From contig CANXME010002307.1 in the NCBI GenBank assembly GCA_948144175.1, positions 1,447,001-1,511,000 on the forward strand: a stretch of DNA of 64,000 nt. The letters run 5' to 3'. Each line of letters begins with the position of its first letter. Position 1 is the first letter of the stretch. This document shows, piece after piece, positions 22,375 through 57,450 of this stretch. This DNA comes from Closterium sp. NIES-65 (lineage: Eukaryota > Streptophyta > Zygnematophyceae > Desmidiales > Closteriaceae). The notes beneath the pieces are model-generated. The model did no database searches, had not been told where the DNA came from, and worked only from the letters and a program-made list of their open reading frames with translations. The position numbers and the translations under genes were made by a program.

Positions 22375-23752
22375 CACTCAAGAAAAGCACTCAAGAAAAG
22401 CACTCAAGCAAAGCACTCAAGCAAAGCACTCAAGCAAAGCACTCAAGCAAAGCACTCAAGAAAAGCACTCAAGCAAAGCACTCAAGCAAAGCACTCAAGA
22501 AAAGCACTCAAGCAAAGCACTCAAGCAAAGCACTCAAGAAAAGCACTCAAGCAAAGCACTCAAGCAAAGCACTCAAGCAAAGCACTCAAGCAAAGCACTC
22601 AAGCAAAGCACTCAAGCAAAGCACTCAAGAAAAGCACTCAAGAAAAGCACTCAAGCAAAGCACTCAAGCAAAGCACTCAAGCAAAGCACTCAAGCAAAGC
22701 ACTCAAGCAAAGCACTCAAGCAAAGCACTCAAGCAAAGCACTCAAGCAAAGCACTCAAGCAAAGCACTCAAGCAAAGCACTCAAGAAAAGCACTCAAGAA
22801 AAGCACTCAAGCAAAGCACTCAAGCAAAGCACTCAAGCAAAGCACTCAAGCAAAGCACTCAAGCAAAGCACTCAAGAAAAGCACTCAAGAAAAGCACTCA
22901 AGCAAAGCACTCAAGCAAAGCACTCAAGCAAAGCACTCAAGAAAAGCACTCAAGAAAAGCACTCAAGCAAAGCACTCAAGCAAAGCACTCAAGCAAAGCA
23001 CTCAAGCAAAGCACTCAAGAAAAGCACTCAAGCAAAGCACTCAAGAAAAGCACTCAAGAAAAGCACTCAAGCAAAGCACTCAAGCAAAGCACTCAAGCAA
23101 AGCACTCAAGAAAAGCACTCAAGAAAAGCACTCAAGCAAAGCACTCAAGCAAAGCACTCAAGCAAAGCACTCAAGCAAAGCACTCAAGCAAAGCACTCAA
23201 GCAAAGCACTCAAGCAAAGCACTCAAGAAAAGCACTCAAGCAAAGCACTCAAGCAAAGCACTCAAGCAAAGCACTCAAGAAAAGCACTCAAGAAAAGCAC
23301 TCAAGCAAAGCACTCAAGCAAAGCACTCAAGCAAAGCACTCAAGCAAAGCACTCAAGAAAAGCACTCAAGCAAAGCACTCAAGCAAAGCACTCAAGCAAA
23401 GCACTCAAGAAAAGCACTCAAGAAAAGCACTCAAGCAAAGCACTCAAGCAAAGCACTCAAGCAAAGCACTCAAGCAAAGCACTCAAGAAAAGCACTCAAG
23501 CAAAGCACTCAAGAAAAGCACTCAAGAAAAGCACTCAAGCAAAGCACTCAAGCAAAGCACTCAAGCAAAGCACTCAAGAAAAGCACTCAAGAAAAGCACT
23601 CAAGCAAAGCACTCAAGCAAAGCACTCAAGCAAAGCACTCAAGCAAAGCACTCAAGCAAAGCACTCAAGCAAAGCACTCAAGCAAAGCACTCAAGAAAAG
23701 CACTCAAGAAAAGCACTCAAGCAAAGCACTCAAGCAAAGCACTCAAGCAAAG

Positions 23753-23765
23753 CACTCAAAAAAAG
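23753..23765 (+). repeat. Monomer variant with G8 to A
   Basis: CACTCAAAAAAAG: an A unit that also has G to A at base 8, giving a run of seven A. The same 13-bp form occurs at 50957-50969 and 57438-57450, and a 12-bp form with six A at 38059-38070 and 63886-63897. Neighbouring run lengths differ between these sites, so several may be independent changes. Confidence 0.92.
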
Positions 23766-24583
23766 CACTCAAGCAAAGCACTCAAGCAAAGCACTCAAGC
23801 AAAGCACTCAAGCAAAGCACTCAAGCAAAGCACTCAAGCAAAGCACTCAAGCAAAGCACTCAAGAAAAGCACTCAAGAAAAGCACTCAAGCAAAGCACTC
23901 AAGCAAAGCACTCAAGCAAAGCACTCAAGCAAAGCACTCAAGCAAAGCACTCAAGAAAAGCACTCAAGCAAAGCACTCAAGCAAAGCACTCAAGCAAAGC
24001 ACTCAAGCAAAGCACTCAAGCAAAGCACTCAAGCAAAGCACTCAAGCAAAGCACTCAAGCAAAGCACTCAAGCAAAGCACTCAAGCAAAGCACTCAAGCA
24101 AAGCACTCAAGCAAAGCACTCAAGCAAAGCACTCAAGCAAAGCACTCAAGCAAAGCACTCAAGCAAAGCACTCAAGCAAAGCACTCAAGCAAAGCACTCA
24201 AGAAAAGCACTCAAGCAAAGCACTCAAGCAAAGCACTCAAGCAAAGCACTCAAGCAAAGCACTCAAGCAAAGCACTCAAGCAAAGCACTCAAGCAAAGCA
24301 CTCAAGCAAAGCACTCAAGCAAAGCACTCAAGCAAAGCACTCAAGCAAAGCACTCAAGCAAAGCACTCAAGCAAAGCACTCAAGCAAAGCACTCAAGAAA
24401 AGCACTCAAGCAAAGCACTCAAGCAAAGCACTCAAGCAAAGCACTCAAGCAAAGCACTCAAGCAAAGCACTCAAGCAAAGCACTCAAGCAAAGCACTCAA
24501 GCAAAGCACTCAAGAAAAGCACTCAAGCAAAGCACTCAAGCAAAGCACTCAAGCAAAGCACTCAAGAAAGCACTCAAGAAAAG

Positions 24584-25753
24584 CACTCAAGCAAAGCACT
24601 CAAGCAAAGCACTCAAGCAAAGCACTCAAGCAAAGCACTCAAGCAAAGCACTCAAGCAAAGCACTCAAGCAAAGCACTCAAGAAAAGCACTCAAGAAAAG
24701 CACTCAAGCAAAGCACTCAAGCAAAGCACTCAAGCAAAGCACTCAAGCAAAGCACTCAAGCAAAGCACTCAAGAAAAGCACTCAAGCAAAGCACTCAAGC
24801 AAAGCACTCAAGCAAAGCACTCAAGCAAAGCACTCAAGCAAAGCACTCAAGCAAAGCACTCAAGCAAAGCACTCAAGCAAAGCACTCAAGCAAAGCACTC
24901 AAGCAAAGCACTCAAGAAAAGCACTCAAGAAAAGCACTCAAGCAAAGCACTCAAGCAAAGCACTCAAGCAAAGCACTCAAGCAAAGCACTCAAGCAAAGC
25001 ACTCAAGCAAAGCACTCAAGCAAAGCACTCAAGAAAAGCACTCAAGCAAAGCACTCAAGCAAAGCACTCAAGCAAAGCACTCAAGAAAAGCACTCAAGAA
25101 AAGCACTCAAGCAAAGCACTCAAGCAAAGCACTCAAGCAAAGCACTCAAGCAAAGCACTCAAGAAAAGCACTCAAGCAAAGCACTCAAGAAAAGCACTCA
25201 AGAAAAGCACTCAAGCAAAGCACTCAAGCAAAGCACTCAAGCAAAGCACTCAAGAAAAGCACTCAAGAAAAGCACTCAAGCAAAGCACTCAAGCAAAGCA
25301 CTCAAGCAAAGCACTCAAGCAAAGCACTCAAGCAAAGCACTCAAGCAAAGCACTCAAGCAAAGCACTCAAGAAAAGCACTCAAGCAAAGCACTCAAGCAA
25401 AGCACTCAAGCAAAGCACTCAAGCAAAGCACTCAAGAAAAGCACTCAAGCAAAGCACTCAAGCAAAGCACTCAAGCAAAGCACTCAAGCAAAGCACTCAA
25501 GCAAAGCACTCAAGCAAAGCACTCAAGAAAAGCACTCAAGCAAAGCACTCAAGCAAAGCACTCAAGCAAAGCACTCAAGAAAAGCACTCAAGAAAAGCAC
25601 TCAAGCAAAGCACTCAAGCAAAGCACTCAAGCAAAGCACTCAAGCAAAGCACTCAAGCAAAGCACTCAAGCAAAGCACTCAAGCAAAGCACTCAAGCAAA
25701 GCACTCAAGCAAAGCACTCAAGCAAAGCACTCAAGAAAAGCACTCAAGAAAAG
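24584..25753 (+). repeat. Long duplicated block Q, copy 1
   Basis: Unit code: C7 AA C5 A C10 AA C7 A C3 AA C4 A C AA C3 AA C7 A C4 A C6 A C3 AA C10 AA, 90 units and 1,170 bp. It matches 29484-30653 at a distance of 4,900 bp with two differing units (C at 25533 and A at 25572 here, swapped in the other copy). It contains the 572-bp module at 24701-25272. Confidence 0.85.
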
Positions 25754-26169
25754 CACTCAAGCAAAGCACTCAAGCAAAGCACTCAAGCAAAGCACTCAAG
25801 AAAAGCACTCAAGAAAAGCACTCAAGCAAAGCACTCAAGCAAAGCACTCAAGCAAAGCACTCAAGCAAAGCACTCAAGCAAAGCACTCAAGAAAAGCACT
25901 CAAGCAAAGCACTCAAGCAAAGCACTCAAGCAAAGCACTCAAGCAAAGCACTCAAGCAAAGCACTCAAGCAAAGCACTCAAGCAAAGCACTCAAGCAAAG
26001 CACTCAAGCAAAGCACTCAAGCAAAGCACTCAAGCAAAGCACTCAAGAAAAGCACTCAAGCAAAGCACTCAAGCAAAGCACTCAAGCAAAGCACTCAAGC
26101 AAAGCACTCAAGCAAAGCACTCAAGCAAAGCACTCAAGCAAAGCACTCAAGCAAAGCACTCAAGAAAAG

Positions 26170-27677
26170 CACTCAAGCAAAGCACTCAAGCAAAGCACTC
26201 AAGCAAAGCACTCAAGAAAAGCACTCAAGAAAAGCACTCAAGCAAAGCACTCAAGCAAAGCACTCAAGCAAAGCACTCAAGCAAAGCACTCAAGAAAAGC
26301 ACTCAAGCAAAGCACTCAAGAAAAGCACTCAAGAAAAGCACTCAAGCAAAGCACTCAAGCAAAGCACTCAAGCAAAGCACTCAAGAAAAGCACTCAAGAA
26401 AAGCACTCAAGCAAAGCACTCAAGCAAAGCACTCAAGCAAAGCACTCAAGCAAAGCACTCAAGCAAAGCACTCAAGCAAAGCACTCAAGCAAAGCACTCA
26501 AGAAAAGCACTCAAGCAAAGCACTCAAGCAAAGCACTCAAGCAAAGCACTCAAGCAAAGCACTCAAGAAAAGCACTCAAGCAAAGCACTCAAGCAAAGCA
26601 CTCAAGCAAAGCACTCAAGCAAAGCACTCAAGCAAAGCACTCAAGCAAAGCACTCAAGAAAAGCACTCAAGAAAAGCACTCAAGCAAAGCACTCAAGCAA
26701 AGCACTCAAGAAAAGCACTCAAGAAAAGCACTCAAGCAAAGCACTCAAGCAAAGCACTCAAGCAAAGCACTCAAGCAAAGCACTCAAGCAAAGCACTCAA
26801 GCAAAGCACTCAAGCAAAGCACTCAAGCAAAGCACTCAAGCAAAGCACTCAAGCAAAGCACTCAAGAAAAGCACTCAAGAAAAGCACTCAAGCAAAGCAC
26901 TCAAGCAAAGCACTCAAGCAAAGCACTCAAGCAAAGCACTCAAGCAAAGCACTCAAGAAAAGCACTCAAGAAAAGCACTCAAGCAAAGCACTCAAGCAAA
27001 GCACTCAAGCAAAGCACTCAAGCAAAGCACTCAAGAAAAGCACTCAAGCAAAGCACTCAAGCAAAGCACTCAAGCAAAGCACTCAAGCAAAGCACTCAAG
27101 CAAAGCACTCAAGAAAAGCACTCAAGCAAAGCACTCAAGCAAAGCACTCAAGCAAAGCACTCAAGCAAAGCACTCAAGCAAAGCACTCAAGCAAAGCACT
27201 CAAGCAAAGCACTCAAGCAAAGCACTCAAGCAAAGCACTCAAGCAAAGCACTCAAGAAAAGCACTCAAGAAAAGCACTCAAGCAAAGCACTCAAGCAAAG
27301 CACTCAAGCAAAGCACTCAAGCAAAGCACTCAAGCAAAGCACTCAAGAAAAGCACTCAAGCAAAGCACTCAAGCAAAGCACTCAAGCAAAGCACTCAAGC
27401 AAAGCACTCAAGCAAAGCACTCAAGCAAAGCACTCAAGCAAAGCACTCAAGCAAAGCACTCAAGCAAAGCACTCAAGCAAAGCACTCAAGAAAAGCACTC
27501 AAGAAAAGCACTCAAGCAAAGCACTCAAGCAAAGCACTCAAGCAAAGCACTCAAGCAAAGCACTCAAGCAAAGCACTCAAGCAAAGCACTCAAGCAAAGC
27601 ACTCAAGAAAAGCACTCAAGCAAAGCACTCAAGCAAAGCACTCAAGCAAAGCACTCAAGAAAAGCACTCAAGAAAAG
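26170..27677 (+). repeat. Long duplicated block P, copy 1
   Basis: Unit code from the left: C3 AA C4 A C AA C3 AA C7 A C4 A C6 AA C2 AA C10 AA C5 AA C4 A C5 A C10 AA C5 A C10 AA C7 A C3 AA, which is 116 units and 1,508 bp. The same order of run lengths occurs at 28497-30003. The two copies differ only at the unit pair 26690-26728 (C A A here, A d A there): one C-to-A change and one missing base. So many run lengths in the same order cannot be chance in such an array, so this is a segmental duplication within the satellite. Copy starts are 2,327 bp apart, leaving 819 bp between the copies. Confidence 0.85.
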
Positions 27678-28496
27678 CACTCAAGCAAAGCACTCAAGCA
27701 AAGCACTCAAGCAAAGCACTCAAGCAAAGCACTCAAGCAAAGCACTCAAGCAAAGCACTCAAGCAAAGCACTCAAGAAAAGCACTCAAGCAAAGCACTCA
27801 AGCAAAGCACTCAAGCAAAGCACTCAAGCAAAGCACTCAAGAAAAGCACTCAAGAAAAGCACTCAAGCAAAGCACTCAAGCAAAGCACTCAAGCAAAGCA
27901 CTCAAGCAAAGCACTCAAGCAAAGCACTCAAGCAAAGCACTCAAGCAAAGCACTCAAGAAAAGCACTCAAGCAAAGCACTCAAGCAAAGCACTCAAGCAA
28001 AGCACTCAAGCAAAGCACTCAAGCAAAGCACTCAAGCAAAGCACTCAAGCAAAGCACTCAAGAAAAGCACTCAAGAAAAGCACTCAAGCAAAGCACTCAA
28101 GCAAAGCACTCAAGCAAAGCACTCAAGAAAAGCACTCAAGAAAAGCACTCAAGCAAAGCACTCAAGCAAAGCACTCAAGCAAAGCACTCAAGCAAAGCAC
28201 TCAAGCAAAGCACTCAAGAAAAGCACTCAAGCAAAGCACTCAAGCAAAGCACTCAAGCAAAGCACTCAAGCAAAGCACTCAAGCAAAGCACTCAAGCAAA
28301 GCACTCAAGCAAAGCACTCAAGCAAAGCACTCAAGCAAAGCACTCAAGCAAAGCACTCAAGAAAAGCACTCAAGAAAAGCACTCAAGCAAAGCACTCAAG
28401 CAAAGCACTCAAGCAAAGCACTCAAGCAAAGCACTCAAGCAAAGCACTCAAGCAAAGCACTCAAGCAAAGCACTCAAGCAAAGCACTCAAGCAAAG

Positions 28497-30003
28497 CACT
28501 CAAGCAAAGCACTCAAGCAAAGCACTCAAGCAAAGCACTCAAGAAAAGCACTCAAGAAAAGCACTCAAGCAAAGCACTCAAGCAAAGCACTCAAGCAAAG
28601 CACTCAAGCAAAGCACTCAAGAAAAGCACTCAAGCAAAGCACTCAAGAAAAGCACTCAAGAAAAGCACTCAAGCAAAGCACTCAAGCAAAGCACTCAAGC
28701 AAAGCACTCAAGAAAAGCACTCAAGAAAAGCACTCAAGCAAAGCACTCAAGCAAAGCACTCAAGCAAAGCACTCAAGCAAAGCACTCAAGCAAAGCACTC
28801 AAGCAAAGCACTCAAGCAAAGCACTCAAGAAAAGCACTCAAGCAAAGCACTCAAGCAAAGCACTCAAGCAAAGCACTCAAGCAAAGCACTCAAGAAAAGC
28901 ACTCAAGCAAAGCACTCAAGCAAAGCACTCAAGCAAAGCACTCAAGCAAAGCACTCAAGCAAAGCACTCAAGCAAAGCACTCAAGAAAAGCACTCAAGAA
29001 AAGCACTCAAGCAAAGCACTCAAGAAAAGCACTCAAGAAAGCACTCAAGAAAAGCACTCAAGCAAAGCACTCAAGCAAAGCACTCAAGCAAAGCACTCAA
29101 GCAAAGCACTCAAGCAAAGCACTCAAGCAAAGCACTCAAGCAAAGCACTCAAGCAAAGCACTCAAGCAAAGCACTCAAGCAAAGCACTCAAGAAAAGCAC
29201 TCAAGAAAAGCACTCAAGCAAAGCACTCAAGCAAAGCACTCAAGCAAAGCACTCAAGCAAAGCACTCAAGCAAAGCACTCAAGAAAAGCACTCAAGAAAA
29301 GCACTCAAGCAAAGCACTCAAGCAAAGCACTCAAGCAAAGCACTCAAGCAAAGCACTCAAGAAAAGCACTCAAGCAAAGCACTCAAGCAAAGCACTCAAG
29401 CAAAGCACTCAAGCAAAGCACTCAAGCAAAGCACTCAAGAAAAGCACTCAAGCAAAGCACTCAAGCAAAGCACTCAAGCAAAGCACTCAAGCAAAGCACT
29501 CAAGCAAAGCACTCAAGCAAAGCACTCAAGCAAAGCACTCAAGCAAAGCACTCAAGCAAAGCACTCAAGCAAAGCACTCAAGAAAAGCACTCAAGAAAAG
29601 CACTCAAGCAAAGCACTCAAGCAAAGCACTCAAGCAAAGCACTCAAGCAAAGCACTCAAGCAAAGCACTCAAGAAAAGCACTCAAGCAAAGCACTCAAGC
29701 AAAGCACTCAAGCAAAGCACTCAAGCAAAGCACTCAAGCAAAGCACTCAAGCAAAGCACTCAAGCAAAGCACTCAAGCAAAGCACTCAAGCAAAGCACTC
29801 AAGCAAAGCACTCAAGAAAAGCACTCAAGAAAAGCACTCAAGCAAAGCACTCAAGCAAAGCACTCAAGCAAAGCACTCAAGCAAAGCACTCAAGCAAAGC
29901 ACTCAAGCAAAGCACTCAAGCAAAGCACTCAAGAAAAGCACTCAAGCAAAGCACTCAAGCAAAGCACTCAAGCAAAGCACTCAAGAAAAGCACTCAAGAA
30001 AAG
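28497..30003 (+). repeat. Long duplicated block P, copy 2
   Basis: Same unit order as 26170-27677 except for an A unit at 29017 where copy 1 has C, and a 12-bp unit at 29030-29041 where copy 1 has A. That makes this copy one base shorter (1,507 bp). To the left, the last three units of a 12-unit C run match copy 1; the next unit out differs, which sets the block edge. Its right end overlaps block Q copy 2 (29484-30653), so duplications are nested. Confidence 0.85.
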
Positions 30004-30653
30004 CACTCAAGCAAAGCACTCAAGCAAAGCACTCAAGCAAAGCACTCAAGCAAAGCACTCAAGAAAAGCACTCAAGCAAAGCACTCAAGAAAAGCACTCA
30101 AGAAAAGCACTCAAGCAAAGCACTCAAGCAAAGCACTCAAGCAAAGCACTCAAGAAAAGCACTCAAGAAAAGCACTCAAGCAAAGCACTCAAGCAAAGCA
30201 CTCAAGCAAAGCACTCAAGCAAAGCACTCAAGCAAAGCACTCAAGCAAAGCACTCAAGCAAAGCACTCAAGAAAAGCACTCAAGCAAAGCACTCAAGCAA
30301 AGCACTCAAGCAAAGCACTCAAGCAAAGCACTCAAGAAAAGCACTCAAGCAAAGCACTCAAGCAAAGCACTCAAGCAAAGCACTCAAGCAAAGCACTCAA
30401 GCAAAGCACTCAAGCAAAGCACTCAAGAAAAGCACTCAAGAAAAGCACTCAAGCAAAGCACTCAAGCAAAGCACTCAAGCAAAGCACTCAAGAAAAGCAC
30501 TCAAGCAAAGCACTCAAGCAAAGCACTCAAGCAAAGCACTCAAGCAAAGCACTCAAGCAAAGCACTCAAGCAAAGCACTCAAGCAAAGCACTCAAGCAAA
30601 GCACTCAAGCAAAGCACTCAAGCAAAGCACTCAAGAAAAGCACTCAAGAAAAG
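29484..30653 (+). repeat. Long duplicated block Q, copy 2
   Basis: Same unit order as 24584-25753 apart from the C/A state of two units (A at 30433 and C at 30472). Both copies are 1,170 bp with no length change. The left part coincides with the right part of block P copy 2. The order of events is therefore layered, with one duplication having copied material already shared by another. Confidence 0.85.
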
Positions 30654-31510
30654 CACTCAAGCAAAGCACTCAAGCAAAGCACTCAAGCAAAGCACTCAAG
30701 CAAAGCACTCAAGCAAAGCACTCAAGAAAAGCACTCAAGAAAAGCACTCAAGCAAAGCACTCAAGCAAAGCACTCAAGCAAAGCACTCAAGCAAAGCACT
30801 CAAGCAAAGCACTCAAGCAAAGCACTCAAGCAAAGCACTCAAGCAAAGCACTCAAGCAAAGCACTCAAGCAAAGCACTCAAGAAAAGCACTCAAGAAAAG
30901 CACTCAAGCAAAGCACTCAAGCAAAGCACTCAAGCAAAGCACTCAAGCAAAGCACTCAAGCAAAGCACTCAAGAAAAGCACTCAAGAAAAGCACTCAAGC
31001 AAAGCACTCAAGCAAAGCACTCAAGCAAAGCACTCAAGAAAAGCACTCAAGAAAAGCACTCAAGCAAAGCACTCAAGCAAAGCACTCAAGCAAAGCACTC
31101 AAGCAAAGCACTCAAGAAAAGCACTCAAGCAAAGCACTCAAGAAAAGCACTCAAGAAAAGCACTCAAGCAAAGCACTCAAGCAAAGCACTCAAGCAAAGC
31201 ACTCAAGAAAAGCACTCAAGAAAAGCACTCAAGCAAAGCACTCAAGCAAAGCACTCAAGCAAAGCACTCAAGCAAAGCACTCAAGCAAAGCACTCAAGCA
31301 AAGCACTCAAGCAAAGCACTCAAGAAAAGCACTCAAGAAAGCACTCAAGCAAAGCACTCAAGCAAAGCACTCAAGAAAAGCACTCAAGAAAAGCACTCAA
31401 GCAAAGCACTCAAGCAAAGCACTCAAGCAAAGCACTCAAGCAAAGCACTCAAGCAAAGCACTCAAGCAAAGCACTCAAGCAAAGCACTCAAGAAAAGCAC
31501 TCAAGAAAAG

Positions 31511-32081
31511 CACTCAAGCAAAGCACTCAAGCAAAGCACTCAAGCAAAGCACTCAAGCAAAGCACTCAAGCAAAGCACTCAAGAAAAGCACTCAAGCAAA
31601 GCACTCAAGCAAAGCACTCAAGCAAAGCACTCAAGCAAAGCACTCAAGCAAAGCACTCAAGCAAAGCACTCAAGCAAAGCACTCAAGCAAAGCACTCAAG
31701 CAAAGCACTCAAGCAAAGCACTCAAGAAAAGCACTCAAGAAAAGCACTCAAGCAAAGCACTCAAGCAAAGCACTCAAGCAAAGCACTCAAGCAAAGCACT
31801 CAAGCAAAGCACTCAAGCAAAGCACTCAAGCAAAGCACTCAAGAAAAGCACTCAAGCAAAGCACTCAAGCAAAGCACTCAAGCAAAGCACTCAAGAAAGC
31901 ACTCAAGAAAAGCACTCAAGCAAAGCACTCAAGCAAAGCACTCAAGCAAAGCACTCAAGCAAAGCACTCAAGAAAAGCACTCAAGCAAAGCACTCAAGAA
32001 AAGCACTCAAGAAAAGCACTCAAGCAAAGCACTCAAGCAAAGCACTCAAGCAAAGCACTCAAGAAAAGCACTCAAGAAAAG
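31511..32081 (+). repeat. 572-bp module copy with a one-base deletion
   Basis: Same unit order as 34081-34652, but the pair at 31888-31912 is d then A instead of A A, so the copy is 571 bp. This shows a 12-bp unit occupying an A slot, supporting loss of one base from the four-A run of an A unit as the origin of this d. Loss of C from the plain unit would give the same sequence, but the neighbouring copies have A here. Confidence 0.8.
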
Positions 32082-33638
32082 CACTCAAGCAAAGCACTCA
32101 AGCAAAGCACTCAAGCAAAGCACTCAAGAAAAGCACTCAAGCAAAGCACTCAAGCAAAGCACTCAAGCAAAGCACTCAAGAAAAGCACTCAAGCAAAGCA
32201 CTCAAGCAAAGCACTCAAGCAAAGCACTCAAGCAAAGCACTCAAGAAAAGCACTCAAGCAAAGCACTCAAGCAAAGCACTCAAGCAAAGCACTCAAGCAA
32301 AGCACTCAAGCAAAGCACTCAAGCAAAGCACTCAAGAAAAGCACTCAAGCAAAGCACTCAAGCAAAGCACTCAAGAAAAGCACTCAAGAAAGCACTCAAG
32401 AAAAGCACTCAAGCAAAGCACTCAAGCAAAGCACTCAAGAAAGCACTCAAGCAAAGCACTCAAGCAAAGCACTCAAGCAAAGCACTCAAGCAAAGCACTC
32501 AAGCAAAGCACTCAAGCAAAGCACTCAAGAAAAGCACTCAAGAAAAGCACTCAAGAAAAGCACTCAAGCAAAGCACTCAAGCAAAGCACTCAAGCAAAGC
32601 ACTCAAGAAAAGCACTCAAGAAAGCACTCAAGCAAAGCACTCAAGCAAAGCACTCAAGCAAAGCACTCAAGCAAAGCACTCAAGCAAAGCACTCAAGCAA
32701 AGCACTCAAGCAAAGCACTCAAGCAAAGCACTCAAGCAAAGCACTCAAGCAAAGCACTCAAGAAAAGCACTCAAGAAAAGCACTCAAGCAAAGCACTCAA
32801 GCAAAGCACTCAAGCAAAGCACTCAAGCAAAGCACTCAAGCAAAGCACTCAAGAAAAGCACTCAAGAAAAGCACTCAAGCAAAGCACTCAAGCAAAGCAC
32901 TCAAGCAAAGCACTCAAGAAAAGCACTCAAGAAAAGCACTCAAGCAAAGCACTCAAGCAAAGCACTCAAGCAAAGCACTCAAGCAAAGCACTCAAGAAAA
33001 GCACTCAAGCAAAGCACTCAAGCAAAGCACTCAAGCAAAGCACTCAAGCAAAGCACTCAAGCAAAGCACTCAAGCAAAGCACTCAAGAAAAGCACTCAAG
33101 AAAAGCACTCAAGCAAAGCACTCAAGCAAAGCACTCAAGAAAAGCACTCAAGAAAAGCACTCAAGCAAAGCACTCAAGCAAAGCACTCAAGCAAAGCACT
33201 CAAGCAAAGCACTCAAGCAAAGCACTCAAGCAAAGCACTCAAGCAAAGCACTCAAGAAAAGCACTCAAGAAAAGCACTCAAGCAAAGCACTCAAGCAAAG
33301 CACTCAAGCAAAGCACTCAAGCAAAGCACTCAAGCAAAGCACTCAAGAAAAGCACTCAAGCAAAGCACTCAAGCAAAGCACTCAAGCAAAGCACTCAAGC
33401 AAAGCACTCAAGCAAAGCACTCAAGCAAAGCACTCAAGCAAAGCACTCAAGAAAAGCACTCAAGCAAAGCACTCAAGCAAAGCACTCAAGCAAAGCACTC
33501 AAGCAAAGCACTCAAGCAAAGCACTCAAGCAAAGCACTCAAGCAAAGCACTCAAGAAAAGCACTCAAGCAAAGCACTCAAGAAAAGCACTCAAGAAAAGC
33601 ACTCAAGAAAAGCACTCAAGCAAAGCACTCAAGCAAAG

Positions 33639-33651
33639 CACTCAAGAAACG
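33639..33651 (+). repeat. Rare e-type monomer
   Basis: CACTCAAGAAACG, an A unit with A to C at base 12. It creates a CpG with the last base, and is otherwise seen only at 42600-42612 and 55037-55049. All three sit in the same slot of the A C AAA C2 module, so they descend from one mutation that was later copied. Confidence 0.93.
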
Positions 33652-34080
33652 CACTCAAGCAAAGCACTCAAGCAAAGCACTCAAGCAAAGCACTCAAGCA
33701 AAGCACTCAAGCAAAGCACTCAAGCAAAGCACTCAAGAAAAGCACTCAAGAAAAGCACTCAAGAAAAGCACTCAAGCAAAGCACTCAAGCAAAGCACTCA
33801 AGCAAAGCACTCAAGCAAAGCACTCAAGAAAAGCACTCAAGAAAAGCACTCAAGCAAAGCACTCAAGCAAAGCACTCAAGCAAAGCACTCAAGAAAAGCA
33901 CTCAAGCAAAGCACTCAAGCAAAGCACTCAAGCAAAGCACTCAAGCAAAGCACTCAAGCAAAGCACTCAAGAAAAGCACTCAAGCAAAGCACTCAAGAAA
34001 AGCACTCAAGAAAAGCACTCAAGCAAAGCACTCAAGCAAAGCACTCAAGCAAAGCACTCAAGAAAAGCACTCAAGAAAAG

Positions 34081-45224: not shown

Positions 45225-45458
45225 CACTCAGGCAAAGCACTCAAGCAAAGCACTCAAGAAAAGCACTCAAGCAAAGCACTCAGGCAAAGCACTCAAGCAA
45301 AGCACTCAAGAAAAGCACTCAAGAAAAGCACTCAAGCAAAGCACTCAAGCAAAGCACTCAAGCAAAGCACTCAAGCAAAGCACTCAAGAAAAGCACTCAA
45401 GCAAAGCACTCAAGAAAAGCACTCAAGAAAAGCACTCAAGCAAAGCACTCAGGCAAAG
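45225..45458 (+). repeat. Local cluster of three GG-type monomers
   Basis: CACTCAGGCAAAG (A7 to G) occurs at 45225-45237, 45277-45289 and 45446-45458 and nowhere else seen. The spacing is 52 and 169 bp, that is 4 and 13 whole units. These supply the only GG dinucleotides and the only CAG (CHG) sites I found in the window. Such close grouping implies recent local copying of one mutation over a range of a few units. Confidence 0.92.
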
Positions 45459-48400
45459 CACTCAAGCAAAGCACTCAAGAAAAGCACTCAAGAAAAGCAC
45501 TCAAGCAAAGCACTCAAGCAAAGCACTCAAGCAAAGCACTCAAGCAAAGCACTCAAGCAAAGCACTCAAGCAAAGCACTCAAGAAAAGCACTCAAGCAAA
45601 GCACTCAAGCAAAGCACTCAAGCAAAGCACTCAAGCAAAGCACTCAAGCAAAGCACTCAAGCAAAGCACTCAAGCAAAGCACTCAAGAAAAGCACTCAAG
45701 CAAAGCACTCAAGCAAAGCACTCAAGCAAAGCACTCAAGCAAAGCACTCAAGCAAAGCACTCAAGCAAAGCACTCAAGAAAAGCACTCAAGCAAAGCACT
45801 CAAGAAAAGCACTCAAGAAAAGCACTCAAGAAAAGCACTCAAGCAAAGCACTCAAGCAAAGCACTCAAGAAAGCACTCAAGCAAAGCACTCAAGCAAAGC
45901 ACTCAAGCAAAGCACTCAAGCAAAGCACTCAAGCAAAGCACTCAAGCAAAGCACTCAAGAAAAGCACTCAAGAAAAGCACTCAAGCAAAGCACTCAAGCA
46001 AAGCACTCAAGCAAAGCACTCAAGCAAAGCACTCAAGCAAAGCACTCAAGAAAAGCACTCAAGAAAAGCACTCAAGCAAAGCACTCAAGCAAAGCACTCA
46101 AGCAAAGCACTCAAGAAAAGCACTCAAGAAAAGCACTCAAGCAAAGCACTCAAGCAAAGCACTCAAGCAAAGCACTCAAGCAAAGCACTCAAGAAAAGCA
46201 CTCAAGCAAAGCACTCAAGAAAAGCACTCAAGAAAAGCACTCAAGCAAAGCACTCAAGCAAAGCACTCAAGCAAAGCACTCAAGAAAAGCACTCAAGAAA
46301 AGCACTCAAGCAAAGCACTCAAGCAAAGCACTCAAGCAAAGCACTCAAGCAAAGCACTCAAGCAAAGCACTCAAGCAAAGCACTCAAGCAAAGCACTCAA
46401 GCAAAGCACTCAAGCAAAGCACTCAAGCAAAGCACTCAAGAAAAGCACTCAAGAAAAGCACTCAAGCAAAGCACTCAAGCAAAGCACTCAAGCAAAGCAC
46501 TCAAGCAAAGCACTCAAGCAAAGCACTCAAGAAAAGCACTCAAGAAAAGCACTCAAGCAAAGCACTCAAGCAAAGCACTCAAGCAAAGCACTCAAGAAAA
46601 GCACTCAAGAAAAGCACTCAAGCAAAGCACTCAAGCAAAGCACTCAAGCAAAGCACTCAAGCAAAGCACTCAAGAAAAGCACTCAAGCAAAGCACTCAAG
46701 AAAAGCACTCAAGAAAAGCACTCAAGCAAAGCACTCAAGCAAAGCACTCAAGCAAAGCACTCAAGAAAAGCACTCAAGAAAAGCACTCAAGCAAAGCACT
46801 CAAGCAAAGCACTCAAGCAAAGCACTCAAGCAAAGCACTCAAGCAAAGCACTCAAGCAAAGCACTCAAGCAAAGCACTCAAGAAAAGCACTCAAGCAAAG
46901 CACTCAAGCAAAGCACTCAAGCAAAGCACTCAAGAAAAGCACTCAAGAAAAGCACTCAAGCAAAGCACTCAAGCAAAGCACTCAAGCAAAGCACTCAAGC
47001 AAAGCACTCAAGCAAAGCACTCAAGAAAAGCACTCAAGCAAAGCACTCAAGCAAAGCACTCAAGCAAAGCACTCAAGCAAAGCACTCAAGCAAAGCACTC
47101 AAGCAAAGCACTCAAGCAAAGCACTCAAGCAAAGCACTCAAGCAAAGCACTCAAGCAAAGCACTCAAGCAAAGCACTCAAGAAAGCACTCAAGAAAAGCA
47201 CTCAAGCAAAGCACTCAAGAAAGCACTCAAGCAAAGCACTCAAGCAAAGCACTCAAGCAAAGCACTCAAGCAAAGCACTCAAGCAAAGCACTCAAGAAAA
47301 GCACTCAAGCAAAGCACTCAAGCAAAGCACTCAAGCAAAGCACTCAAGAAAAGCACTCAAGAAAAGCACTCAAGCAAAGCACTCAAGCAAAGCACTCAAG
47401 CAAAGCACTCAAGCAAAGCACTCAAGAAAAGCACTCAAGCAAAGCACTCAAGAAAAGCACTCAAGAAAAGCACTCAAGCAAAGCACTCAAGCAAAGCACT
47501 CAAGCAAAGCACTCAAGAAAGCACTCAAGAAAAGCACTCAAGCAAAGCACTCAAGCAAAGCACTCAAGCAAAGCACTCAAGCAAAGCACTCAAGCAAAGC
47601 ACTCAAGCAAAGCACTCAAGAAAAGCACTCAAGCAAAGCACTCAAGCAAAGCACTCAAGCAAAGCACTCAAGCAAAGCACTCAAGCAAAGCACTCAAGCA
47701 AAGCACTCAAGCAAAGCACTCAAGAAAAGCACTCAAGCAAAGCACTCAAGCAAAGCACTCAAGCAAAGCACTCAAGCAAAGCACTCAAGCAAAGCACTCA
47801 AGCAAAGCACTCAAGCAAAGCACTCAAGCAAAGCACTCAAGCAAAGCACTCAAGCAAAGCACTCAAGAAAAGCACTCAAGAAAGCACTCAAGCAAAGCAC
47901 TCAAGCAAAGCACTCAAGAAAGCACTCAAGCAAAGCACTCAAGCAAAGCACTCAAGCAAAGCACTCAAGCAAAGCACTCAAGCAAAGCACTCAAGCAAAG
48001 CACTCAAGCAAAGCACTCAAGAAAAGCACTCAAGCAAAGCACTCAAGCAAAGCACTCAAGCAAAGCACTCAAGCAAAGCACTCAAGCAAAGCACTCAAGC
48101 AAAGCACTCAAGAAAAGCACTCAAGCAAAGCACTCAAGCAAAGCACTCAAGCAAAGCACTCAAGCAAAGCACTCAAGCAAAGCACTCAAGCAAAGCACTC
48201 AAGCAAAGCACTCAAGCAAAGCACTCAAGCAAAGCACTCAAGAAAAGCACTCAAGAAAAGCACTCAAGAAAAGCACTCAAGCAAAGCACTCAAGCAAAGC
48301 ACTCAAGAAAGCACTCAAGCAAAGCACTCAAGCAAAGCACTCAAGCAAAGCACTCAAGCAAAGCACTCAAGCAAAGCACTCAAGCAAAGCACTCAAGAAA

Positions 48401-50956
48401 AGCACTCAAGAAAAGCACTCAAGCAAAGCACTCAAGCAAAGCACTCAAGCAAAGCACTCAAGCAAAGCACTCAAGCAAAGCACTCAAGAAAAGCACTCAA
48501 GAAAAGCACTCAAGCAAAGCACTCAAGCAAAGCACTCAAGCAAAGCACTCAAGAAAAGCACTCAAGAAAAGCACTCAAGCAAAGCACTCAAGCAAAGCAC
48601 TCAAGCAAAGCACTCAAGCAAAGCACTCAAGAAAAGCACTCAAGCAAAGCACTCAAGAAAAGCACTCAAGAAAAGCACTCAAGCAAAGCACTCAAGCAAA
48701 GCACTCAAGCAAAGCACTCAAGAAAGCACTCAAGAAAAGCACTCAAGAAAAGCACTCAAGCAAAGCACTCAAGCAAAGCACTCAAGCAAAGCACTCAAGC
48801 AAAGCACTCAAGCAAAGCACTCAAGCAAAGCACTCAAGCAAAGCACTCAAGCAAAGCACTCAAGCAAAGCACTCAAGCAAAGCACTCAAGAAAAGCACTC
48901 AAGAAAAGCACTCAAGCAAAGCACTCAAGCAAAGCACTCAAGCAAAGCACTCAAGCAAAGCACTCAAGCAAAGCACTCAAGAAAAGCACTCAAGCAAAGC
49001 ACTCAAGCAAAGCACTCAAGCAAAGCACTCAAGCAAAGCACTCAAGAAAGCACTCAAGAAAAGCACTCAAGCAAAGCACTCAAGCAAAGCACTCAAGCAA
49101 AGCACTCAAGCAAAGCACTCAAGAAAAGCACTCAAGCAAAGCACTCAAGAAAAGCACTCAAGAAAAGCACTCAAGCAAAGCACTCAAGCAAAGCACTCAA
49201 GCAAAGCACTCAAGAAAAGCACTCAAGAAAAGCACTCAAGCAAAGCACTCAAGCAAAGCACTCAAGCAAAGCACTCAAGCAAAGCACTCAAGCAAAGCAC
49301 TCAAGCAAAGCACTCAAGCAAAGCACTCAAGAAAAGCACTCAAGCAAAGCACTCAAGCAAAGCACTCAAGCAAAGCACTCAAGAAAAGCACTCAAGAAAA
49401 GCACTCAAGCAAAGCACTCAAGCAAAGCACTCAAGCAAAGCACTCAAGCAAAGCACTCAAGCAAAGCACTCAAGAAAAGCACTCAAGCAAAGCACTCAAG
49501 CAAAGCACTCAAGCAAAGCACTCAAGCAAAGCACTCAAGCAAAGCACTCAAGCAAAGCACTCAAGCAAAGCACTCAAGCAAAGCACTCAAGCAAAGCACT
49601 CAAGCAAAGCACTCAAGAAAAGCACTCAAGAAAAGCACTCAAGCAAAGCACTCAAGAAAGCACTCAAGCAAAGCACTCAAGCAAAGCACTCAAGCAAAGC
49701 ACTCAAGCAAAGCACTCAAGCAAAGCACTCAAGAAAAGCACTCAAGCAAAGCACTCAAGCAAAGCACTCAAGCAAAGCACTCAAGCAAAGCACTCAAGAA
49801 AAGCACTCAAGCAAAGCACTCAAGCAAAGCACTCAAGCAAAGCACTCAAGCAAAGCACTCAAGAAAAGCACTCAAGCAAAGCACTCAAGAAAAGCACTCA
49901 AGAAAAGCACTCAAGCAAAGCACTCAAGCAAAGCACTCAAGCAAAGCACTCAAGAAAGCACTCAAGAAAAGCACTCAAGCAAAGCACTCAAGCAAAGCAC
50001 TCAAGCAAAGCACTCAAGCAAAGCACTCAAGCAAAGCACTCAAGCAAAGCACTCAAGAAAAGCACTCAAGAAAAGCACTCAAGCAAAGCACTCAAGCAAA
50101 GCACTCAAGCAAAGCACTCAAGCAAAGCACTCAAGCAAAGCACTCAAGCAAAGCACTCAAGAAAAGCACTCAAGCAAAGCACTCAAGCAAAGCACTCAAG
50201 CAAAGCACTCAAGCAAAGCACTCAAGCAAAGCACTCAAGCAAAGCACTCAAGCAAAGCACTCAAGAAAAGCACTCAAGCAAAGCACTCAAGAAAAGCACT
50301 CAAGCAAAGCACTCAAGAAAAGCACTCAAGCAAAGCACTCAAGCAAAGCACTCAAGAAAGCACTCAAGCAAAGCACTCAAGCAAAGCACTCAAGCAAAGC
50401 ACTCAAGCAAAGCACTCAAGCAAAGCACTCAAGCAAAGCACTCAAGAAAAGCACTCAAGAAAAGCACTCAAGCAAAGCACTCAAGCAAAGCACTCAAGCA
50501 AAGCACTCAAGCAAAGCACTCAAGCAAAGCACTCAAGAAAAGCACTCAAGAAAAGCACTCAAGCAAAGCACTCAAGCAAAGCACTCAAGCAAAGCACTCA
50601 AGAAAAGCACTCAAGCAAAGCACTCAAGCAAAGCACTCAAGAAAGCACTCAAGCAAAGCACTCAAGCAAAGCACTCAAGCAAAGCACTCAAGCAAAGCAC
50701 TCAAGCAAAGCACTCAAGCAAAGCACTCAAGAAAAGCACTCAAGAAAAGCACTCAAGCAAAGCACTCAAGCAAAGCACTCAAGCAAAGCACTCAAGCAAA
50801 GCACTCAAGCAAAGCACTCAAGAAAGCACTCAAGCAAAGCACTCAAGCAAAGCACTCAAGCAAAGCACTCAAGCAAAGCACTCAAGAAAAGCACTCAAGA
50901 AAAGCACTCAAGCAAAGCACTCAAGCAAAGCACTCAAGCAAAGCACTCAAGCAAAG

Positions 50957-50969
50957 CACTCAAAAAAAG
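50957..50969 (+). repeat. Monomer variant with G8 to A
   Basis: CACTCAAAAAAAG, as at 23753, standing in an A slot between runs of plain C units. Confidence 0.92.
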
Positions 50970-53900
50970 CACTCAAGCAAAGCACTCAAGCAAAGCACTC
51001 AAGCAAAGCACTCAAGCAAAGCACTCAAGCAAAGCACTCAAGCAAAGCACTCAAGAAAAGCACTCAAGCAAAGCACTCAAGCAAAGCACTCAAGAAAAGC
51101 ACTCAAGCAAAGCACTCAAGCAAAGCACTCAAGCAAAGCACTCAAGCAAAGCACTCAAGCAAAGCACTCAAGCAAAGCACTCAAGAAAAGCACTCAAGAA
51201 AAGCACTCAAGCAAAGCACTCAAGCAAAGCACTCAAGCAAAGCACTCAAGAAAAGCACTCAAGAAAAGCACTCAAGCAAAGCACTCAAGCAAAGCACTCA
51301 AGCAAAGCACTCAAGCAAAGCACTCAAGCAAAGCACTCAAGCAAAGCACTCAAGAAAAGCACTCAAGAAAAGCACTCAAGCAAAGCACTCAAGCAAAGCA
51401 CTCAAGCAAAGCACTCAAGCAAAGCACTCAAGCAAAGCACTCAAGAAAAGCACTCAAGAAAAGCACTCAAGCAAAGCACTCAAGCAAAGCACTCAAGCAA
51501 AGCACTCAAGCAAAGCACTCAAGCAAAGCACTCAAGAAAAGCACTCAAGAAAAGCACTCAAGCAAAGCACTCAAGCAAAGCACTCAAGCAAAGCACTCAA
51601 GCAAAGCACTCAAGAAAAGCACTCAAGCAAAGCACTCAAGCAAAGCACTCAAGCAAAGCACTCAAGCAAAGCACTCAAGCAAAGCACTCAAGCAAAGCAC
51701 TCAAGAAAAGCACTCAAGCAAAGCACTCAAGCAAAGCACTCAAGCAAAGCACTCAAGCAAAGCACTCAAGCAAAGCACTCAAGCAAAGCACTCAAGAAAA
51801 GCACTCAAGAAAAGCACTCAAGCAAAGCACTCAAGCAAAGCACTCAAGCAAAGCACTCAAGAAAAGCACTCAAGAAAAGCACTCAAGCAAAGCACTCAAG
51901 CAAAGCACTCAAGCAAAGCACTCAAGCAAAGCACTCAAGAAAAGCACTCAAGCAAAGCACTCAAGAAAAGCACTCAAGAAAAGCACTCAAGCAAAGCACT
52001 CAAGCAAAGCACTCAAGCAAAGCACTCAAGAAAAGCACTCAAGAAAAGCACTCAAGCAAAGCACTCAAGCAAAGCACTCAAGCAAAGCACTCAAGCAAAG
52101 CACTCAAGCAAAGCACTCAAGCAAAGCACTCAAGCAAAGCACTCAAGCAAAGCACTCAAGCAAAGCACTCAAGCAAAGCACTCAAGCAAAGCACTCAAGA
52201 AAAGCACTCAAGAAAAGCACTCAAGCAAAGCACTCAAGCAAAGCACTCAAGCAAAGCACTCAAGCAAAGCACTCAAGCAAAGCACTCAAGCAAAGCACTC
52301 AAGCAAAGCACTCAAGAAAAGCACTCAAGAAAAGCACTCAAGCAAAGCACTCAAGCAAAGCACTCAAGCAAAGCACTCAAGCAAAGCACTCAAGCAAAGC
52401 ACTCAAGAAAAGCACTCAAGCAAAGCACTCAAGCAAAGCACTCAAGCAAAGCACTCAAGCAAAGCACTCAAGCAAAGCACTCAAGCAAAGCACTCAAGCA
52501 AAGCACTCAAGCAAAGCACTCAAGCAAAGCACTCAAGCAAAGCACTCAAGCAAAGCACTCAAGCAAAGCACTCAAGAAAAGCACTCAAGCAAAGCACTCA
52601 AGCAAAGCACTCAAGCAAAGCACTCAAGCAAAGCACTCAAGAAAGCACTCAAGAAAAGCACTCAAGCAAAGCACTCAAGCAAAGCACTCAAGCAAAGCAC
52701 TCAAGCAAAGCACTCAAGCAAAGCACTCAAGAAAAGCACTCAAGCAAAGCACTCAAGCAAAGCACTCAAGCAAAGCACTCAAGCAAAGCACTCAAGAAAA
52801 GCACTCAAGCAAAGCACTCAAGCAAAGCACTCAAGCAAAGCACTCAAGCAAAGCACTCAAGCAAAGCACTCAAGCAAAGCACTCAAGCAAAGCACTCAAG
52901 AAAAGCACTCAAGCAAAGCACTCAAGCAAAGCACTCAAGAAAAGCACTCAAGCAAAGCACTCAAGCAAAGCACTCAAGCAAAGCACTCAAGAAAGCACTC
53001 AAGCAAAGCACTCAAGCAAAGCACTCAAGCAAAGCACTCAAGCAAAGCACTCAAGCAAAGCACTCAAGCAAAGCACTCAAGCAAAGCACTCAAGAAAAGC
53101 ACTCAAGCAAAGCACTCAAGCAAAGCACTCAAGCAAAGCACTCAAGCAAAGCACTCAAGCAAAGCACTCAAGCAAAGCACTCAAGCAAAGCACTCAAGCA
53201 AAGCACTCAAGCAAAGCACTCAAGCAAAGCACTCAAGCAAAGCACTCAAGCAAAGCACTCAAGCAAAGCACTCAAGCAAAGCACTCAAGCAAAGCACTCA
53301 AGCAAAGCACTCAAGCAAAGCACTCAAGCAAAGCACTCAAGCAAAGCACTCAAGAAAAGCACTCAAGAAAAGCACTCAAGCAAAGCACTCAAGCAAAGCA
53401 CTCAAGCAAAGCACTCAAGAAAAGCACTCAAGAAAAGCACTCAAGCAAAGCACTCAAGCAAAGCACTCAAGCAAAGCACTCAAGCAAAGCACTCAAGAAA
53501 AGCACTCAAGCAAAGCACTCAAGAAAAGCACTCAAGAAAAGCACTCAAGCAAAGCACTCAAGCAAAGCACTCAAGCAAAGCACTCAAGAAAAGCACTCAA
53601 GCAAAGCACTCAAGCAAAGCACTCAAGCAAAGCACTCAAGCAAAGCACTCAAGCAAAGCACTCAAGCAAAGCACTCAAGCAAAGCACTCAAGCAAAGCAC
53701 TCAAGCAAAGCACTCAAGCAAAGCACTCAAGCAAAGCACTCAAGAAAAGCACTCAAGCAAAGCACTCAAGCAAAGCACTCAAGCAAAGCACTCAAGCAAA
53801 GCACTCAAGCAAAGCACTCAAGCAAAGCACTCAAGAAAAGCACTCAAGAAAAGCACTCAAGCAAAGCACTCAAGCAAAGCACTCAAGCAAAGCACTCAAG

Positions 53901-55036
53901 AAAAGCACTCAAGAAAAGCACTCAAGCAAAGCACTCAAGCAAAGCACTCAAGCAAAGCACTCAAGCAAAGCACTCAAGCAAAGCACTCAAGCAAAGCACT
54001 CAAGAAAAGCACTCAAGAAAAGCACTCAAGCAAAGCACTCAAGCAAAGCACTCAAGCAAAGCACTCAAGAAAAGCACTCAAGAAAAGCACTCAAGCAAAG
54101 CACTCAAGCAAAGCACTCAAGCAAAGCACTCAAGCAAAGCACTCAAGCAAAGCACTCAAGCAAAGCACTCAAGCAAAGCACTCAAGAAAAGCACTCAAGC
54201 AAAGCACTCAAGCAAAGCACTCAAGCAAAGCACTCAAGAAAAGCACTCAAGAAAAGCACTCAAGCAAAGCACTCAAGCAAAGCACTCAAGCAAAGCACTC
54301 AAGCAAAGCACTCAAGCAAAGCACTCAAGCAAAGCACTCAAGCAAAGCACTCAAGAAAAGCACTCAAGAAAAGCACTCAAGCAAAGCACTCAAGCAAAGC
54401 ACTCAAGCAAAGCACTCAAGCAAAGCACTCAAGCAAAGCACTCAAGAAAAGCACTCAAGCAAAGCACTCAAGCAAAGCACTCAAGCAAAGCACTCAAGCA
54501 AAGCACTCAAGCAAAGCACTCAAGCAAAGCACTCAAGCAAAGCACTCAAGCAAAGCACTCAAGCAAAGCACTCAAGCAAAGCACTCAAGCAAAGCACTCA
54601 AGCAAAGCACTCAAGCAAAGCACTCAAGAAAAGCACTCAAGCAAAGCACTCAAGCAAAGCACTCAAGCAAAGCACTCAAGCAAAGCACTCAAGAAAAGCA
54701 CTCAAGAAAAGCACTCAAGCAAAGCACTCAAGCAAAGCACTCAAGCAAAGCACTCAAGCAAAGCACTCAAGCAAAGCACTCAAGAAAAGCACTCAAGCAA
54801 AGCACTCAAGCAAAGCACTCAAGCAAAGCACTCAAGCAAAGCACTCAAGAAAAGCACTCAAGCAAAGCACTCAAGCAAAGCACTCAAGCAAAGCACTCAA
54901 GCAAAGCACTCAAGCAAAGCACTCAAGCAAAGCACTCAAGCAAAGCACTCAAGAAAAGCACTCAAGCAAAGCACTCAAGAAAAGCACTCAAGAAAAGCAC
55001 TCAAGAAAAGCACTCAAGCAAAGCACTCAAGCAAAG

Positions 55037-55049
55037 CACTCAAGAAACG
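55037..55049 (+). repeat. Rare e-type monomer
   Basis: Third CACTCAAGAAACG unit. Left context is C7 A C AAA C2 as in the other two. To the right it continues C6 AA C5 A, resembling the copy at 41417-41598 (C6 AA C5) rather than block R (C6 AAA C4). This suggests an older shared origin or recombination between module lineages. Confidence 0.93.
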
Positions 55050-57437
55050 CACTCAAGCAAAGCACTCAAGCAAAGCACTCAAGCAAAGCACTCAAGCAAA
55101 GCACTCAAGCAAAGCACTCAAGCAAAGCACTCAAGAAAAGCACTCAAGAAAAGCACTCAAGCAAAGCACTCAAGCAAAGCACTCAAGCAAAGCACTCAAG
55201 CAAAGCACTCAAGCAAAGCACTCAAGAAAAGCACTCAAGCAAAGCACTCAAGCAAAGCACTCAAGCAAAGCACTCAAGCAAAGCACTCAAGCAAAGCACT
55301 CAAGCAAAGCACTCAAGCAAAGCACTCAAGCAAAGCACTCAAGCAAAGCACTCAAGCAAAGCACTCAAGCAAAGCACTCAAGCAAAGCACTCAAGAAAAG
55401 CACTCAAGAAAGCACTCAAGCAAAGCACTCAAGCAAAGCACTCAAGCAAAGCACTCAAGCAAAGCACTCAAGAAAAGCACTCAAGCAAAGCACTCAAGCA
55501 AAGCACTCAAGCAAAGCACTCAAGCAAAGCACTCAAGAAAAGCACTCAAGCAAAGCACTCAAGCAAAGCACTCAAGAAAGCACTCAAGCAAAGCACTCAA
55601 GCAAAGCACTCAAGCAAAGCACTCAAGAAAAGCACTCAAGAAAAGCACTCAAGCAAAGCACTCAAGCAAAGCACTCAAGCAAAGCACTCAAGCAAAGCAC
55701 TCAAGCAAAGCACTCAAGCAAAGCACTCAAGCAAAGCACTCAAGCAAAGCACTCAAGCAAAGCACTCAAGCAAAGCACTCAAGCAAAGCACTCAAGAAAG
55801 CACTCAAGCAAAGCACTCAAGCAAAGCACTCAAGCAAAGCACTCAAGCAAAGCACTCAAGCAAAGCACTCAAGAAAAGCACTCAAGAAAAGCACTCAAGC
55901 AAAGCACTCAAGCAAAGCACTCAAGCAAAGCACTCAAGCAAAGCACTCAAGAAAAGCACTCAAGCAAAGCACTCAAGCAAAGCACTCAAGCAAAGCACTC
56001 AAGCAAAGCACTCAAGAAAAGCACTCAAGCAAAGCACTCAAGAAAAGCACTCAAGAAAAGCACTCAAGCAAAGCACTCAAGCAAAGCACTCAAGCAAAGC
56101 ACTCAAGAAAAGCACTCAAGAAAAGCACTCAAGCAAAGCACTCAAGCAAAGCACTCAAGCAAAGCACTCAAGCAAAGCACTCAAGCAAAGCACTCAAGCA
56201 AAGCACTCAAGCAAAGCACTCAAGCAAAGCACTCAAGAAAAGCACTCAAGCAAAGCACTCAAGCAAAGCACTCAAGAAAAGCACTCAAGAAAGCACTCAA
56301 GCAAAGCACTCAAGCAAAGCACTCAAGCAAAGCACTCAAGCAAAGCACTCAAGCAAAGCACTCAAGCAAAGCACTCAAGCAAAGCACTCAAGCAAAGCAC
56401 TCAAGCAAAGCACTCAAGAAAAGCACTCAAGCAAAGCACTCAAGCAAAGCACTCAAGCAAAGCACTCAAGAAAAGCACTCAAGCAAAGCACTCAAGCAAA
56501 GCACTCAAGCAAAGCACTCAAGCAAAGCACTCAAGCAAAGCACTCAAGCAAAGCACTCAAGCAAAGCACTCAAGAAAAGCACTCAAGCAAAGCACTCAAG
56601 CAAAGCACTCAAGCAAAGCACTCAAGCAAAGCACTCAAGCAAAGCACTCAAGCAAAGCACTCAAGAAAAGCACTCAAGAAAAGCACTCAAGCAAAGCACT
56701 CAAGCAAAGCACTCAAGCAAAGCACTCAAGCAAAGCACTCAAGAAAAGCACTCAAGCAAAGCACTCAAGCAAAGCACTCAAGAAAAGCACTCAAGCAAAG
56801 CACTCAAGCAAAGCACTCAAGCAAAGCACTCAAGCAAAGCACTCAAGCAAAGCACTCAAGCAAAGCACTCAAGCAAAGCACTCAAGCAAAGCACTCAAGC
56901 AAAGCACTCAAGAAAAGCACTCAAGAAAAGCACTCAAGCAAAGCACTCAAGCAAAGCACTCAAGCAAAGCACTCAAGCAAAGCACTCAAGCAAAGCACTC
57001 AAGCAAAGCACTCAAGAAAAGCACTCAAGCAAAGCACTCAAGCAAAGCACTCAAGCAAAGCACTCAAGCAAAGCACTCAAGCAAAGCACTCAAGCAAAGC
57101 ACTCAAGCAAAGCACTCAAGCAAAGCACTCAAGAAAAGCACTCAAGCAAAGCACTCAAGCAAAGCACTCAAGAAAAGCACTCAAGCAAAGCACTCAAGCA
57201 AAGCACTCAAGCAAAGCACTCAAGCAAAGCACTCAAGCAAAGCACTCAAGCAAAGCACTCAAGCAAAGCACTCAAGCAAAGCACTCAAGCAAAGCACTCA
57301 AGAAAAGCACTCAAGCAAAGCACTCAAGCAAAGCACTCAAGCAAAGCACTCAAGCAAAGCACTCAAGCAAAGCACTCAAGCAAAGCACTCAAGCAAAGCA
57401 CTCAAGCAAAGCACTCAAGCAAAGCACTCAAGCAAAG

Positions 57438-57450
57438 CACTCAAAAAAAG
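57438..57450 (+). repeat. Monomer variant with G8 to A
   Basis: CACTCAAAAAAAG within a long stretch of plain C units, at the approximate start of the intermediate-density zone. Confidence 0.92.

Follow-up and report, generated by a model that had tools for sequence, protein, structure and literature searches.

Higher-order blocks written in one variable base of a 13-bp satellite array from Closterium sp. NIES-65

Alpha-satellite monomers are about 171 bp long and differ from each other at many sites, and the basic unit of the human satellites HSat2 and HSat3 is related to CATTC and is also variable at many sites. In the extracts available of the papers cited here and below, the monomers of HSat1A, HSat2 and HSat3 are given as 5 to 42 bp (PMC10199239), HSat2A2 is described with a 1.77-kb repeat unit that its authors liken to a higher-order repeat (PMC4022460), and the chromosome ends of Arabidopsis thaliana are reported to carry higher-order repeats of variant 7-bp telomeric units (PMC11406999). 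For minisatellites such as MSY1 it is established practice to read an array as a string of unit variants, and small gains and losses together with single-unit switches without a change of length have been attributed there to repair synthesis on misaligned sister chromatids (PMC2599865). Here we describe a stretch of 64,000 nucleotides from the alga Closterium sp. NIES-65 (contig CANXME010002307.1; hereafter the window) that consists of one satellite array with a 13-bp unit, in which base 9 of the unit, C or A, forms a binary string. Three layers can be distinguished in it, namely the 13-bp unit itself, a weak periodicity of 13 units (169 bp) that extends through most of the window and blocks at lags of about 76–190 units, and the array very probably evolves as blocks are repeatedly copied and lost, the order of the base-9 states being copied with each block. 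The original prediction, which concerned positions 22375–57450, held such layering to be less expected for a short monomer; given the precedents of human satellite 2 (PMC4022460) and of the Arabidopsis telomeric variants (PMC11406999), as far as the extracts describe them, this was overstated.

Tandem Repeats Finder (TRF) returned a single row for the window, with period 13, 4928.9 copies and 97% matches. On the forward strand, to which all coordinates given here refer, positions 1..64000 comprise 4,930 units with the consensus CACTCAAGCAAAG, base 9 being C or A, and the reverse complement of the C unit is absent from the whole window, so the array has one orientation; uniformly oriented head-to-tail units over tens of kilobases place it among the satellites. 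Both the start and the end of the window lie inside the array, and the limits 22375 and 57450 proved not to be its ends, as they enclose only its most structured part. The 4,930 units include 3,900 C units (CACTCAAGCAAAG), 946 A units (CACTCAAGAAAAG), 67 units of 12 bp that equal the A unit minus one A (CACTCAAGAAAG), four units of an 8-bp form and 13 units of six rarer types, one of which is the last unit, which the end of the window truncates. In the binary string each unit was reduced to its C or A state, with the 12-bp units and the four 8-bp units scored as A, and the analysis concerns one assembled sequence. Substitutions outside the C/A change at base 9 occur in 12 of the 4,930 units (the 8-bp units and the truncated last one not counted), compared with the 946 A units. 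Most simply, turnover would be fast relative to mutation, leaving one old variant at an intermediate frequency and the others rare.

Evidence for block copying comes from self-matches of the C/A string. Exact matches of at least 40 units, counted if they contained at least three A, numbered 100, against means of 0.15 in 20 permutations (largest 1), 1.8 in 20 run-length shuffles (largest 5) and 21 in eight order-12 Markov strings (largest 34); at 60 units or more, 14 matches were observed and the respective means were 0, 0.15 and 0.62. The best gapped self-alignment scored 187.6, whereas no permutation exceeded 29.4 and no run shuffle 41.4 (30 of each); the string aligned with its own reverse gave 34.0. 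Self-alignment in unit space had been suggested as the check, and its long matches are far more numerous, and its best score far higher, than those of shuffled strings. Since both exact and gapped matches exceed the permutation, run-shuffle, Markov and windowed nulls, block copying is supported, and blocks of many variant units recur with their unit order kept, as in higher-order repeats. The longest exact C/A match, 112 units at 42236/44121, is interrupted in the full unit sequences, and the longest unit-for-unit identical repeat has 103 units (103 × 13 = 1,339 bp; 33392/42353). The top-scoring copy extends over 249 columns, or about 3.2 kb, with five mismatches and two gap units (37683–40935 versus 42353–45588). 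Between 22336 and 57113, 2,244 of the 2,680 units are covered by at least one of 38 alignments scoring at least 50, and the sharing extends beyond 22375–57450 to 1.7–3.5 kb, 9.3–10.2 kb and 61.4–62.3 kb.

Three recurring strings had been named beforehand, and in each case the block is real but the length given for it was not. The supposed 116 units at 26170/28497 resolve into 40 exact units, a break and 79 exact units at 26703/29030; they belong to a block pair at 25637..30055 (25637–27729 versus 27964–30055, lag 179 units) of 161 columns with three mismatches. The pair of 90 units at 24584/29484 contains 73 exact units and extends over 93 columns with two mismatches (24584..30692; 24584–25792 versus 29484–30692, lag 377 units), and the 92 units at 33457/42418 are a part of the 103-unit exact match that begins at 33392/42353.

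At 33–46 kb a block of 145 units (1,885 bp) is repeated head to tail. If 42236–44120 is taken as the reference, the period spans 257 units, the reference being followed by 112 further units without a C/A mismatch (42236..45575, 1.8 copies). The same block is found at 37683..40922 (1.7 copies head to tail; 248 columns, five mismatches, two gap units), at 35227..37396 (1.1 copies; 163 columns, one mismatch, four gap units) and at 33392..34730 (0.7 copy; no C/A mismatch, and unit-for-unit identical to 42353–43691). The whole window yields 24 matches to the block that do not overlap. Set against 34.6, the top score among 200 run-shuffled arrays, 17 of these matches are higher (one of them holds the reference itself), one is about equal (35) and the other six score 32 or less. 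Because parts of the block, for example its positions 57–112, also stand alone near 24.6, 29.5 and 31.4 kb, this core seems to have been built from modules that exist apart from it too. A fixed head-to-tail period was detected in the core only, at 42236–45575 (257 units) and 37683–40922 (248 columns).

Nine of the 71 gapped alignments have columns amounting to at least 0.75 of their lag, and in two of them the columns exceed it; the lags are 76, 85, 86, 112, 145, 147 (twice), 179 and 188 units, and because they are close to the lengths of the blocks themselves, the copies are nearly adjacent. Such copies are seen at 24636..26923 (24636–25792 versus 25754–26923, lag 86 units; 89 columns, two mismatches, one gap unit), at 40598..43106, where they overlap head to tail (40598–42014 versus 41703–43106, lag 85 units; 108 columns, four mismatches, one gap unit), and, outside 22375–57450, at 1663..3480 (1663–2493 versus 2650–3480, lag 76 units; 64 columns, no C/A mismatch). 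Long-lag autocorrelation exceeded the maximum of 200 permutations at 22–32 kb (0.809 versus 0.622) and did not exceed it at 32–46 kb (0.233 versus 0.236), 1–11.7 kb (0.268 versus 0.314) or 46–57 kb (0.283 versus 0.427). The block spacing that had been proposed as irregular is not simply so: outside the core the lags of near-adjacent copies vary from 76 to 188 units, but the core has its 145-unit head-to-tail period and the array its 13-unit sub-period.

This sub-period is seen as a recurrence of A units at a lag of 13 units, with a correlation of 0.223, whereas 300 run shuffles gave 0.023 on average; its z of 13.7 is unsurpassed by any other lag from 1 to 60 over the whole window. When six regions were ranked separately, lag 13 came first in three, second in one, third in one and tenth (z 1.7) in an A-poor zone. 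The signal survives the removal of repeated words of 20, 25 and 31 units, and the correlation is still 0.192 after masking of 13 copies of the commonest core string. At 5235..5741 a 13-unit C/A string (AA C7 A C3) stands three times head to tail, 39 units in full. A short founder string could explain this layer. Nucleosome-sized satellites have lengths near 169 bp, and the closeness may be a coincidence; a preferred shift of about one nucleosome in exchange, as opposed to the accident of one founder string, appears to us an unlikely cause. If it were true, a 13-bp satellite would have built a nucleosome-sized repeat from one variable base, with larger blocks on top.

The run lengths of the binary string agree with what had been claimed for them. 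C-runs of 3, 4, 5, 7 and 10 units are all in excess over a geometric law (128, 99, 79, 84 and 34 observed versus 80.6, 66.6, 55.0, 37.5 and 21.2), and so are runs of 6 (60 versus 45.4), runs of 8 and 9 being depleted (19 and 8 versus 31.0 and 25.6). AA pairs are indeed frequent, with 308 double A-runs against 352 single ones; 18 are triple and one is quadruple. The favoured C-run lengths are probably those of a few amplified founder strings, and no separate cause is needed. In the A-poor zone at 11681..22323 the A-type units amount to 7.8% and three C-runs reach 53, 55 and 56 units, which looks like the local expansion of a stretch composed of C units alone.

We suggest that blocks of one to a few hundred units are copied and lost faster than point mutations accumulate, and that one old change of base 9 from C to A became common and now acts as a neutral marker whose order travels with each copied block. 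Duplication of blocks, edited afterwards at single units, would account for most of the structure. Unequal exchange, be it between sister chromatids or between homologues, may underlie the copying, or else repair synthesis on a misaligned template, and the single-unit differences between copies would be due to small slippage or conversion. Within 3,916 aligned columns, 147 differ, namely 69 in the C/A state, 36 by a 13-bp versus a 12-bp A unit and 42 otherwise, and gaps occupy 46 unit positions; the 38 alignments behind these numbers share units and are not independent. Most of the gap runs (26 of 32) are one unit long. Single-unit slippage and conversion, by analogy with MSY1 as described in the extract of PMC2599865, would give copy differences of this sort. 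The rare unit CACTCAAGAAACG has three occurrences, all in the context ACAAACC[.]CCCCCC, and such a common context is the expectation for copies by descent.

Evolution was also simulated, with uniform rates and power-law block sizes, and the fits are to be taken as approximate. Of 12,000 runs 11,978 were retained, comprising 3,997 with slippage only (one to five units per event), 3,983 with tandem block copying and 3,998 with a mixture of tandem and dispersed copying. Among the 100 retained runs closest to the observed string 54 were tandem, 46 mixed and none slippage-only; without the lag statistics there were 60 tandem and 40 mixed runs. It is therefore hardly conceivable that the strings arose by slippage alone, in steps of one to five units. 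Small slippage does occur, as the predominance of single-unit gaps between block copies indicates, and slippage runs can gain long exact matches through coarsening, but in these runs A-runs of three or more units make up, as means, 0.098–0.929 of all A-runs versus 0.028 observed, and A-runs reach at least nine units on average, whereas the longest observed has four. The comparison with slippage-only evolution, which had also been proposed as a check, thus bears out the original prediction of repeated segmental copying and not only unit-by-unit slippage. A different objection is that base 9 may be a mutation hot spot or under two-state selection, with the order of states functional. Base 9 does hold nearly all the common variation, and C/A changes account for 69 of the 147 differing columns, but recurrent mutation would not yield shared orders over 100 units, for which copying is needed, and we regard this explanation as very improbable.

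Several observations weigh against the explanation by block copying. No simulated model fits all the statistics; in the five closest tandem runs the longest match was 144–294 units versus 112 observed, and the exact head-to-tail share was 0.062–0.106 versus 0.01. This share of 0.01, among 98 matches, was as low in two of 117 tandem re-runs and in 20 of 118 mixed ones, and the decay of ungapped similarity with distance is not significant (rho −0.05; as low in 1,047 of 5,000 permutations). The largest small-lag signal of nearly all re-runs is weaker than the 13-unit signal: a z of at least 13.7, at any lag, was reached by two of 60 tandem and none of 59 mixed re-runs (the observed value in the comparison script being 13.3), so that an element is missing from the model, possibly a founder string of very few units. 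Finally, in the nine alignments of the core to the 145-unit reference, the columns that differ in C/A (5 of 145) do not outnumber those with other rare variants (6), columns with 12-bp units also numbering 5, with the qualification that C/A is only one of many possible changes. Both this set of differences and that of the 38 alignments lean towards few mismatches because the alignments end where mismatches are dense. The scarcity of exact head-to-tail matches, the lack of significant ungapped decay and the dispersed copying in 46 of the closest 100 runs speak for a rival reading, in which a large share of the copies was placed at a distance by template switching, distant gene conversion or reinsertion of excised circles. 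Such placement is possible though rather unlikely: gapped similarity falls with distance (rho −0.26; as low in 11 of 3,000 permutations, with 27 of 75 tandem and 39 of 49 mixed re-runs at or above this value), nine of the gapped alignments join copies that are nearly adjacent, a head-to-tail period is present in the core, and later deletions can also scatter copies that were once adjacent.

Short-unit arrays of this kind are generally hard to assemble, and the block structure, in whole or in part, might be an artefact of assembly or consensus. The 12-bp units are only partly common to the copies, and odd units cluster at 38059/38136 and 45225–45446. At the same time, the longest unit-for-unit repeat of 1,339 bp is below the usual length of long reads, and the larger copies carry differences, whereas a duplicated read or contig would be expected to give longer identity, so that we consider an artefact quite improbable.

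The 12-bp unit CACTCAAGAAAG is shared in nine columns between block copies; in 36 it stands opposite a 13-bp A unit and in seven opposite a C unit. Being only partly shared, it reflects a consensus fault or else a deletion that is frequent in the A4 run. Neither the corresponding one-base loss from C units nor a unit with an extra A was found among all 4,930 units. Its local density may be illustrated by 45446–51931, with 14 such units among 130 A-type units. Units CACTCAGGCAAAG at 45225, 45277 and 45446 start within 221 bases and occur nowhere else, and the aligned copies have a plain C unit at these places. The units CACTCAAAAAAG and CACTCAACGAAAG, at 38059 and 38136, have their starts 77 bases apart; opposite the former the aligned copies of the core carry plain A or C units, and opposite the latter plain A units, and this is perhaps a patch of poor consensus.

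None of the three forward frames contains a stop codon anywhere in the window (1–64000, + strand). Open frames were rejected as evidence of coding, since the unit itself is without a stop triplet in every frame of this strand and the frames therefore carry no gene meaning. Exact patterns of 34 and 26 bases had no match in the viral_contigs and genome_contigs collections, and a 2,000-base piece (22375–24374) had no BLAST match among plasmids and phages, a search that is weak for a short-unit array because the low-complexity filter was on. Of the 26 possible rotations and strands of the C unit, 24 were searched for in the open-licence literature, and no satellite paper, judged by titles, came up; the other two and the A unit were not searched for. 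As far as these searches of open-licence papers reach, this satellite is not in print. According to the extracts available, a 13-bp repeat of Senna tora forms a short array in a ribosomal spacer (PMC7902697; compared by description), and one in yeast is a half-sized telomeric repeat (PMC3486848).

The array of Closterium sp. NIES-65 is of the same kind as the known short-unit higher-order repeats and represents a known mode of repeat evolution. It resembles HSat2 and HSat3 in its short basic unit and long arrays, and its 1.885-kb repeat may be set beside the 1.77 kb given in the extract on HSat2A2. It differs from them in that nearly all common variation falls on one base of 13 and in that all units are forms of CACTCAAGCAAAG and not of a CATTC-related sequence; no sequence relation is claimed. 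In Arabidopsis the blocks, as the extract describes them, consist of two to about five units, whereas here they have tens to nearly two hundred. MSY1, too, is read as a string of unit types, but 77 units in three homogeneous blocks are described in that extract, as against 4,930 units with mixed strings copied whole. Like alpha satellite, the array has a multi-unit block whose head-to-tail copies differ little from one another, although here the units within a block differ mostly by one base. That three layers exist on so short a unit bears on how higher-order repeats begin. What stands out in comparison with these systems is the purity of the record, one base with two states over thousands of units: with almost all common variation confined to this base, block copying is recorded in clean binary form and other mutated sites add little noise. 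The sizes and places of copying events can be read from this record and could be compared among individuals, a comparison that is more difficult in arrays variable at many sites.

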